A stretch of 64,000 nucleotides of DNA from Halobacteriovorax sp. HLS (lineage in GTDB: Bacteria; Bdellovibrionota; Bacteriovoracia; Bacteriovoracales; Bacteriovoracaceae): the NCBI RefSeq assembly GCF_004006665.1, contig NZ_QOCL01000004.1, positions 62,001-126,000 of the forward strand. The letters run 5' to 3'. Position 1 is the stretch's first letter. Each line of letters begins with the position of its first letter. This document shows, in pieces, positions 59,759-63,010 of this stretch. A program made the position numbers and the translations under genes. A model generated the notes under the pieces. It worked only from the letters and a program-made list of their open reading frames with translations, had not been told where the DNA came from and made no database searches.

Positions 59759-59905
59759 TATATTTTCCTATTCAATAAATCAGTCACTATTTATTCGGAA
59801 TATTGCATAAAATAGTTAAAGAATTTTGAGGTTTAATTCGAAAAAAAAACATAGTGAAGTGCTTTAATTTCATTTGTTTATAAAGAAAATCTTTAGAGAG
59901 AGGAT

Positions 59906-62900
59906 ATCAAAATCTGGTTAAAATTATTTCTTTTATTCATTCTATCAAGCGCAACTTTTTCACAAGTTGATGATCTGTTTCAAGAATCAATGGATAAGTT
60001 TGAAAAATATTGTGTTGACCAAAATGATGAGATCAGACTCGATGTCTTTGTAAAAGATGAAATGTATTCTTGTAAAACAGAGTTTGAATATATTCAAAAA
60101 GAATTTGAGGCCCGTGAATCCTTAATGTCACAGCATCCAGAGATATATGAGCAATATCAAAATTGTATTAAGAATAAAGACGCTTCAAAAGTAAGTGACT
60201 TTGCTGAGAGTGTTGAAGATATTGCTGAAAAGGTCAGTTGCCTCGCAGAAGAAAAGAAAGATTTTGAAAAAGATTGTTCAAAAGCATGGCAGTGTAACAA
60301 GTTTAGAGCAGTACTAGATGTCATTGAGGTCTTACCTGGACCAATAGAGCGTCCAGTAGAAAGATATATTCAATCTGAAGCAAGACAAAAAGGGCTCTCT
60401 TCTGATTGTCTCTCGGATGATAAGTCCAATTGTATGGAGGACTTTGTAAATGCTTTAATGGATAATTTGTGGTCGTCTGCTACTAGTATCTTAAATCTTG
60501 CAAAAAGTGGATTTAAGTCTCTTTTTAATATGGATAAGTTCTTTAGTGATGAAGCGGATAAGCAGAAAGTAAAAATGAACCAGACCGTAGAAGATGTAGA
60601 GACTTTTCTAGATTCTCCTGGAAAGTGGATTTCAAACTTCTTAGACAAATTGAAAAGTGGTGTTGATAAATGGGTTCGATCATCTGTCTTTTGTCAGGAG
60701 TGGGAATATAATAGTGACATTCGTGAACGTGGAGGAGTTGTTGATTCAAGCTCTGGAGCACTAAGGACTTGTACTAAACCTCTAGATAATTATGATTGTA
60801 TTGATTGCGATGATAAAATTAATGCTACTTGTATCGCTCTGGGGGGGCTTACTGCGGAGCTTGGTGTTGCTTTCTTTACTGCCGGAATAGGTACTGCTGC
60901 AAATTTTGCAGCAAGAGCTGGAGCAAAAAGTTTGGCCATCGTTTCAGCTAAAGTTGGTACAAAGATAAAAGCTGTTGCACCTAGTTTTTCTAAAGGAAGT
61001 AAGGCGAAGGTTGCTCAAACATCTAGAGCAGCTGCTCTGATGTCCAAGGGAATATCTAAGTCTACAGAAATGGCAAAACTTATGTATTCAGTATCAAGTG
61101 CTAAGGCAAAAAAGTTTAAGGCCAGGGCAGATGCTTTAAGCTTAGCTGTAAAGAATACAAAAGTAGTAAAGGTGACTGCTCTTGTTATTGAAAAAGGGAA
61201 TGTTCCTGCCAGAATAAGCGAGAAGATCGGAGAAAAGGGAGCCTTGTTAGCTGCTAAAGTCACTTCGAAAGTTGGAAAAGGAACTGTGAAAAAGGAAGCA
61301 GACCTTTTACTTAAGGCATCTAAAAAATCTAAAACCTCATCTAAAGCTAAAGACTTTGTCGATGAAAGAACACATGGGAAAAAGAGAGTCGTTGGTCATA
61401 CAGCCAAAGGAAAGAAGCATTATGATAGAGGGGAGAAAGCTACATCTGGAGGAGAGACTCTAGGATCTAGTAATTCGCACTCTGATCATGGTGCTCATTC
61501 TAATAATAAAAGTAGTGATAGTAGTGGAAGAGGAAGTCGTGAGAGAGTTTCTAGAGAGAAACCTCGTAAAGATGATAATCTAACTAGAGAGAAAACTGAA
61601 AGAGAAAGAGTCACCCTTGATAAAAAGAAGAGTGAAGATGCCAAAAGTTTAACAGAAAAGAAAAATCGTGAAGATGAAAGAGTCGCTATTGAAAAGAAAA
61701 AGAAAGAAGATGAAAGAATAGCTGCTGAGAAGAAAAAGAAAGAAGAACATCACGAAGAAGAAAATGATAAGAAAAATGGAAAAACCAGTATTGTAAAGGT
61801 TGCAGCATCTGTTGTTGCTGTAGACTTGGCTGCAAAGGGAGTGAATATATCTCGTGAAGAAGCTCAGCAAGAGATAGAAAGATTGAAGGAAAAGCGCTTA
61901 AGAAAGAACGATAAGTTTTCTAATAATTTAAATTCAGCGAAAGAAGTTCTTGGAATAGATGATAAGACAAGTTCTCCTACTGATATCACTAGAAAGGCCG
62001 ATGCTTTAACAAAGATGTATTCGAATGCGAATAAGGAAACGATTGTATCGAGTATCCAAAAAGCAAATCCTAATATGAGTCGTAGAGATGCAGAAAATGC
62101 TTTCTCTCAAAGAAGAAATAACGTTATAAAAGCAAGAGATTATATTAATACCGAAGCTGCAGTTGAAAGCACTAGTGTTGCTAAACGTGAGAAGGTTGAT
62201 AAGTTAAGAAATCAGCTAGAGCAAATTAAGACTCAAGGGAAAATTAGTTCTCTTAATACTGAAATTGAAGATTTGAAAAAGCAAAGCCTAAAAATTAATG
62301 AAGATGTGCAATCTGAGATAGGCGACACTAGAGAAGTTGTAGCAAATAGGGCCGCCACACCTTCAAGCTCTACTCGTGCCCCAATTGAATCTTCTAGGAC
62401 TTCATTGGCTGCACCTTCTAGTGGTAGAGCAGTATCAAGTGCAGCATCAGCAAACACTTCTTCTGCTTCAGCATCAAGTTCTTCTGAGAGTATAGGAAGT
62501 GAGCACTCTGGAGAAAACTCTACTCATGAAAGTAATCATCAAGGAAGTGTTGCTGTTGACTCTCTTGAGGGAGCAGAGAATTTAAATGAAATAGATTCTC
62601 TTCATGATGCAACAGATGAATTAGTTGTTGAAAGTGATCTCACTGAACTAAAAGTTGAGGATGAAAGTGTAGCGCGTAAGAAAAGCTCTAACTTAAAAAA
62701 TTTACTTAATCTGATATCAAAAAATAAAATGAAAATAGAAAAGAATGTTACTCTAGATTTGGATGTGTCTAAAGTTAAGGCCCAGAGTGAACAAATAAAA
62801 TCCAAGTTAATAAAGTTAAAATTACTATCTATAAAAAAATCTTTAGCGCAAAAGAAGGTGACCTACACAACTGGAAAAGGAAGACTTGAAGTTTATCATT

Positions 62901-63010
62901 TTGATGATGAAGTATTTCCAATAGTTGTTTCAGAAAAAGGGGAATTAGAGCTTCTAAATAATACGGAGTCACAAGTGATCATTCAAAGCTCAATTGACAC
63001 GATCGAATAA
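59906..63010 (+). CDS. Giant secreted low-complexity protein, apparent AUC start
   Basis: Open frame of about 1034 codons. The first ATG is at 59990, but the frame runs upstream to a TAG at 59894-59896 and encodes a textbook signal peptide, MKIWLKLFLLFILSSATFS if ATC at 59906 is read as Met. No ATG, GTG, TTG or CTG lies in that stretch; GAGAGAGG sits at 59896-59903, and a second ATC is at 59912. The mature N-terminus is Cys-rich (about a dozen in 300 residues). A hydrophobic Ala/Gly region near 310-345 follows, then a Lys/Glu/Arg rod, a Ser/Ala-rich linker and a basic helical end. No family recognised. It is likely surface or periplasmic. Confidence 0.75.
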   Translation: MKIWLKLFLLFILSSATFSQVDDLFQESMDKFEKYCVDQNDEIRLDVFVKDEMYSCKTEFEYIQKEFEARESLMSQHPEIYEQYQNCIKNKDASKVSDFAESVEDIAEKVSCLAEEKKDFEKDCSKAWQCNKFRAVLDVIEVLPGPIERPVERYIQSEARQKGLSSDCLSDDKSNCMEDFVNALMDNLWSSATSILNLAKSGFKSLFNMDKFFSDEADKQKVKMNQTVEDVETFLDSPGKWISNFLDKLKSGVDKWVRSSVFCQEWEYNSDIRERGGVVDSSSGALRTCTKPLDNYDCIDCDDKINATCIALGGLTAELGVAFFTAGIGTAANFAARAGAKSLAIVSAKVGTKIKAVAPSFSKGSKAKVAQTSRAAALMSKGISKSTEMAKLMYSVSSAKAKKFKARADALSLAVKNTKVVKVTALVIEKGNVPARISEKIGEKGALLAAKVTSKVGKGTVKKEADLLLKASKKSKTSSKAKDFVDERTHGKKRVVGHTAKGKKHYDRGEKATSGGETLGSSNSHSDHGAHSNNKSSDSSGRGSRERVSREKPRKDDNLTREKTERERVTLDKKKSEDAKSLTEKKNREDERVAIEKKKKEDERIAAEKKKKEEHHEEENDKKNGKTSIVKVAASVVAVDLAAKGVNISREEAQQEIERLKEKRLRKNDKFSNNLNSAKEVLGIDDKTSSPTDITRKADALTKMYSNANKETIVSSIQKANPNMSRRDAENAFSQRRNNVIKARDYINTEAAVESTSVAKREKVDKLRNQLEQIKTQGKISSLNTEIEDLKKQSLKINEDVQSEIGDTREVVANRAATPSSSTRAPIESSRTSLAAPSSGRAVSSAASANTSSASASSSSESIGSEHSGENSTHESNHQGSVAVDSLEGAENLNEIDSLHDATDELVVESDLTELKVEDESVARKKSSNLKNLLNLISKNKMKIEKNVTLDLDVSKVKAQSEQIKSKLIKLKLLSIKKSLAQKKVTYTTGKGRLEVYHFDDEVFPIVVSEKGELELLNNTESQVIIQSSIDTIE

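Follow-up and report, generated by a model that had tools for sequence, protein, structure and literature searches.

Halobacteriovorax is a marine predator of bacteria, and one gene of Halobacteriovorax sp. HLS raises the question of where, and at which codon, the translation of a large exported protein begins. The gene lies on the forward strand (59906..63010) of the window, the 64,000-nucleotide stretch of DNA analysed here, which is part of a genome of 3.84 Mb in 16 contigs. It is predicted to encode an exported protein, and its intact frame has orthologs in syntenic position in four congeners. Read from an ATC at 59906, the frame runs uninterrupted for 1,034 codons to a stop codon at 63008-63010. 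Upstream it is closed by a TAG (59894-59896), after which come AGA GAG GAT ATC (59906) AAA ATC (59912) TGG TTA AAA and then TTA TTT CTT TTA TTC ATT CTA TCA AGC GCA ACT TTT TCA CAA. The corresponding product would be MKIWLKLFLLFILSSATFS-QVDD..., of 1,034 residues; it matched no Pfam or NCBIfam family above the cut-off, and AlphaFold, given three sequences, returned a model too poor for use (mean pLDDT 34).

An earlier note on this DNA held that a start at the first in-frame ATG (59990..59992, forward strand) leaves the protein without a signal peptide, and that the frame upstream, from ATC 59906, encodes one. Both points were borne out: the predicted signal peptide, MKIWLKLFLLFILSSATFS (59906..59962, forward strand), is a hydrophobic leader that occupies the same place in the four congeners and lies upstream of 59990. 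Signal peptides were called by a simple hydrophobicity rule together with homology. From the second candidate start, ATC 59912 (59912..59914, forward strand), the leader would read MWLKLFLLFILSSATFS, and a full signal peptide is predicted from either ATC. The same note had counted no ATG, GTG, TTG or CTG between the TAG and the ATG and had listed the two ATC codons as the only candidates. The first statement holds except for an in-frame CTG at 59975, which sits after the signal peptide and therefore could not restore it; as for the second, both ATC codons are present, but an in-frame ATT at 59939 has to be added. These three are the only in-frame candidates for a start before the end of the leader. 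With CTG 59975 and ATG 59990 both downstream of the leader, no canonical start yields the conserved N-terminus. Across 1.26 Mb and 1,122 genes of this genome, only the window gene, two genes with ATT and one CTG case combine a motif resembling a Shine-Dalgarno (SD) sequence with a predicted signal peptide that ends before any canonical start is reached.

The history of the codon can be read from its relatives, the species itself being represented by one genome and the comparison comprising four congeners (G001-G004) and more distant homologs. Orthologs are present in all four congeners at 40-46% identity, with the same flanking genes in the same order, and each begins with an ATG followed by a hydrophobic leader, as do the more distant homologs. 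This occurrence of ATG and leader throughout indicates that the ATC is derived and private to the present genome (G000). Comparing position 59908 among relatives had been proposed in the earlier note, with an ATG there taken as the sign of a strain-specific mutation or a sequencing error; ATG is what all four congeners have, and the AUN codon is thus not conserved. When G002, the closest relative, is aligned with the window by hand from a conserved upstream element through the start, a single gap suffices (AGAGATTCGAATATGAAT against AGAGAGAGGATATCAAA) and its ATG comes to stand opposite ATC 59906 (59906..59908, forward strand). A MAFFT alignment of all five sequences places the gap elsewhere and leaves the G002 ATG and ATC 59906 off by one base.

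The upstream element itself, CTTTAATTTCATTTRTTTATAAAGAAAA (59862..59889, forward strand), is 28 nt long, is present in 5/5 Halobacteriovorax genomes and is probably a promoter core, with a TATAAA. It occurs once per genome, always before the window gene or its ortholog, and no other copy of its core was found within three mismatches in the five genomes. Apart from one R position it is identical in the five species, although the protein is so much less conserved. Such conservation goes beyond the need of an ordinary promoter, and a regulator dedicated to this gene may perhaps act there.

What distinguishes the window gene from its orthologs, besides the codon, is the strength of its SD sequence. 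This sequence, AGAGAGAGGA (59895..59904, forward strand), pairs with the anti-SD at about -7.9 kcal/mol and includes, at 59895-59903, the motif AGAGAGAGG that the first reading of the sequence had noticed directly before the ATC. It is stronger than the SD of 90% of 610 ATG genes, and the ATG orthologs have duplexes of 0 to -2.9 kcal/mol. In all five genes compared that differ in start type between species, the AUN version has on average the stronger SD. Structure in the leader mRNA was not notable (z +1.4), the local mRNA being weakly structured.

The spacing of this SD bears on the choice between the two ATC codons. For ATC 59912 the duplex of -7.9 kcal/mol is formed at a spacing of 7 (AGGA); ATC 59906 reaches -7.6 kcal/mol at a spacing of 2, but only -3.5 kcal/mol if a spacing of at least 4 is required, so that a suitably spaced SD serves the second codon and the first has only the weaker pairing at normal spacing. 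When the genome's own ATG genes are taken as a guide (323 of them), the motifs GAGG, GGAG and AGGA are found mostly 4-8 nt from the ATG on its upstream side, with AGGA at 6-7. The GAGG that ends 2 nt before ATC 59906 therefore has a spacing that is rare here, and the AGGA 7 nt before ATC 59912 has the usual one, which makes the second ATC the better-placed candidate by spacing. On the other hand, it is the first ATC that faces the ATG of the closest ortholog, the second having no ATG counterpart in the relatives.

Taken together, these observations make it likely that an ATG was replaced by ATC in the lineage of this species, and that the exported protein is now translated from an AUC, at 59912 or 59906, with the help of a stronger SD. 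After the change, the initiator tRNA in the P site would pair with AUC despite a third-position mismatch, the complex being held by the strong SD. Formylmethionine would still be inserted by the initiator tRNA and the signal peptide retained, and synthesis of the pre-protein would be reduced but real, perhaps to 10-30% of that from AUG, as measured for AUU and AUA starts in S. aureus. Initiation factor IF3, whose own gene starts with AUU here, would discriminate against the AUC. Use of the AUC by the ribosome, the level of output and any discrimination by IF3 are the inferred parts of this scheme. The IF3 of this genome keeps Y75, R99 and R131, the positions considered on the model of E. coli IF3; these residues lend no support to the idea that the unusual start arose because IF3 had ceased to discriminate.

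The window gene does not stand alone, since several Halobacteriovorax genes appear, from their upstream sequences, to begin at AUU, AUC or AUA. In this genome three such starts are conserved in all five species. The first is infC, which has an ATT behind GGAGGTGATTT in 5/5 genomes; its start looks like ATA (G009) or ATC (G011) in two further genera of the same family. The second belongs to a class-IV aminotransferase (G000:C1:39771-40625), with an ATA behind GGAGT(T/C)TACAA in 5/5 species. Its Pfam Aminotran_4 domain begins at residue 32, and in the present genome the next canonical start, 61 codons in, would leave the domain short of roughly its first 30 positions. In other genera the aminotransferase mostly begins with ATG, with an apparent ATA in G058 and G059 and an apparent ATT in G010. 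The third is a secreted protein of 216 residues (G000:C1:232947-233594; upstream sequence GAGGCGCCT), with an ATT behind GGAGGCGCCT (GGAGG or AGGAGG) in 5/5 species; G003 and G004 have an additional in-frame ATG six codons upstream, and the ATT is safest in the other three.

Other cases vary between species. A Methyltransf_30 protein has ATA in three of the five (G001, G003 and G004, which are related species) and ATG in G000 and G002. A lipoprotein resembling Hydrolase_4, referred to here as the lipase (G000:C3:336343, minus strand), has ATT only in this genome and ATG in 4/4 congeners. A sensor histidine kinase (G000:C3:42440, minus strand) likewise has ATT here only, with 128 codons devoid of a canonical start, and its G002 ortholog starts with ATG. 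In G001, a FecR-like exported protein (266588-267176, minus strand) shows GAAGAAGGT-ATC-GTA-AAA opposite the ATG of its G000 ortholog, and may possibly represent a second AUC start in the genus. A further signal-peptide gene, at G000:C4:14524, seemingly starts at a CTG behind AAGAGGATTATTCC, its first canonical start following about 29 codons later. The tally was made within a single genus and is not to be read as an unusually high rate. A general use of AUN starts in this genome was rejected: in-frame upstream AT[TCA] codons, taken over all genes, showed no general SD enrichment, and the AUN starts are therefore individual rare exceptions and not a sign of a changed code. Codon-usage scoring of the upstream extensions had little power.

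A wider interpretation would make AUN starts in Halobacteriovorax a recurrent, IF3-sensitive means of keeping selected genes low or of switching them with the predatory cycle, AUG and AUN interconverting while the SD compensates. It would embrace infC, the class-IV aminotransferase, the methyltransferase, the sensor kinase, the lipase and the secreted proteins, the window gene among them, and we regard it as a tentative idea of low probability. For the window gene in particular, the corresponding proposal is that AUC initiation is regulated in the manner of infC, that the amount of protein made follows the IF3 level or the growth phase, and that the change was selected for this reason. The constant ATT of infC in the five genomes, the residues by which IF3 looks competent to discriminate and the compensating SD all agree with it, as does the medium-dependent AUA start of ccpN (PMC13009471). 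The ATG of every relative, however, implies that the genus has no need of such regulation at this gene, and we hold the proposal to be unlikely. The earlier note's first option, an AUC start that limits a large product, survives in part, in that use of the AUC at a reduced level is the most likely state of affairs but conservation of the ATC is absent.

Its second option, a species-specific change from ATG to ATC that has silenced the gene, also divides into a part that agrees with the ATG of the four congeners and a part that fits the data poorly. Silencing would mean that the G-to-C change abolished translation and that the gene is a young pseudogene, not yet decayed. A change private to this genome, against an ATG in every relative, is what such an event would leave; nevertheless, the frame is intact over 1,034 codons and evolves no faster than expected. 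This genome's branch is 1.95 times as long in the window protein as in six concatenated neighbouring genes, and over the whole tree the corresponding factor is 1.90; there is no sign of long-term relaxation or acceleration, and the stops, frameshifts and faster evolution that would characterise a pseudogene by start loss were not found. The SD has become stronger, not weaker, almost no other inactivating point changes are present in 611 genes, and the other AUN starts sit in genes that are clearly kept. These results argue against silencing, and we consider the pseudogene quite improbable.

The counts behind this statement bear equally on the reality of the base. Comparison of 1.26 Mb of G000 with 0.84 Mb of G001 yielded 624 ortholog pairs, and the 611 of them with a tblastn hit contain, in this genome, one internal stop and no frameshift. 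The same 611 genes hold two private changes of ATG to ATN, in the window gene and in the lipase. Single-base opportunities to form a stop number 82,961, against 1,872 to turn an ATG into ATN (44 times as many), so that, were the private ATN codons errors or random inactivations, premature stops should number in the dozens. At least two out of three such events would hit start codons with a probability of about 0.0014 (binomial, by hand), or 0.044 when the window gene, which was chosen beforehand, is set aside; both values are post hoc and rest on small numbers. The counts point away from error as well as from silencing. A base 59908 misread in sequencing or assembly, the true codon at 59906 being ATG, would fit a gene that is one base short of a perfect MKIW start and has ATG in all its relatives. 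Yet an error rate that hit the starts of the window gene, the lipase and the kinase should have produced dozens of false stops and frameshifts among the 611 genes, and an ATG at 59906 would leave the strong SD at an unusual spacing of 2 nt; we consider such an error very unlikely. Least probable is a version retained in the cell that begins at ATG 59990 (or CTG 59975) and lacks a signal peptide, for although this ATG is the first canonical start and the pick of gene finders, its pairing of -0.7 kcal/mol amounts to no SD and is surpassed by about 84% of ATG genes, more than 80 nt separate it from the strong SD upstream, and every ortholog has the leader.

Translation from an AUC, as favoured here, would have consequences for annotation. 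The gene finders in common use recognise no starts other than ATG, GTG and TTG, and genes with AUN starts are therefore annotated short or missed. Canonical-only annotation would cost this predator's 3-kb exported protein its signal peptide and cut the first positions, about 30, of the class-IV aminotransferase domain. The part worth following is that a single predatory genus has several apparent AUN starts, of which some are conserved and others newly arisen. The three genus-conserved starts, together with the species-specific changes of ATG to ATN accompanied by stronger SDs, form a natural series in which the origin of AUN starts, their tolerance and perhaps their use in control can be tested.

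Starts at AUU, AUA and AUC are already documented, but they are rare. In S. aureus, citZ (AUA), cvfC1 (AUU) and ccpN (AUA) were identified by retapamulin ribosome profiling and reporters, with about 10% of the output of AUG and up to 30% for ccpN, and the AUA of citZ is limited to one strain lineage (PMC13009471). Like the window gene, these are otherwise ordinary genes with an AUN start and a good SD; they differ in having AUA or AUU instead of AUC, extended SDs, a Firmicute host and a start shown experimentally. The infC gene, with AUU in E. coli and AUC in Streptomyces, is conserved and autoregulated by IF3 (PMC5472188). It shares with the window gene the class of codon, which in Streptomyces is AUC itself and which recurs in the infC of Halobacteriovorax; in contrast, the window gene codes for no translation factor, and its relatives do not share the ATC. 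In Borrelia burgdorferi, the AUU of pncA/bbe22 has genetic, biochemical and crystallographic proof (PMC13398362), and there too databases list a downstream canonical start that loses a needed N-terminus, although the codon is AUU and the start is proven, whereas that of the window gene is read from sequence. Rare starts that lower synthesis include the GUC of Streptomyces sigR, where repression by IF3 was shown (PMC5472188), and the AUU of E. coli pcnB, as cited in PMC13009471; they differ from the window gene in codon or protein and in having an established regulatory role. RcsD-Hpt of Yersinia is also among the documented rare starts (PMC10191623). Conservation of the AUN codon is usual for infC or ccpN, but it is lacking in the strain-specific citZ as it is in the window gene. 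By analogy, the window gene, if it works, would work like citZ, whose lineage-restricted AUA closely resembles its private ATC.
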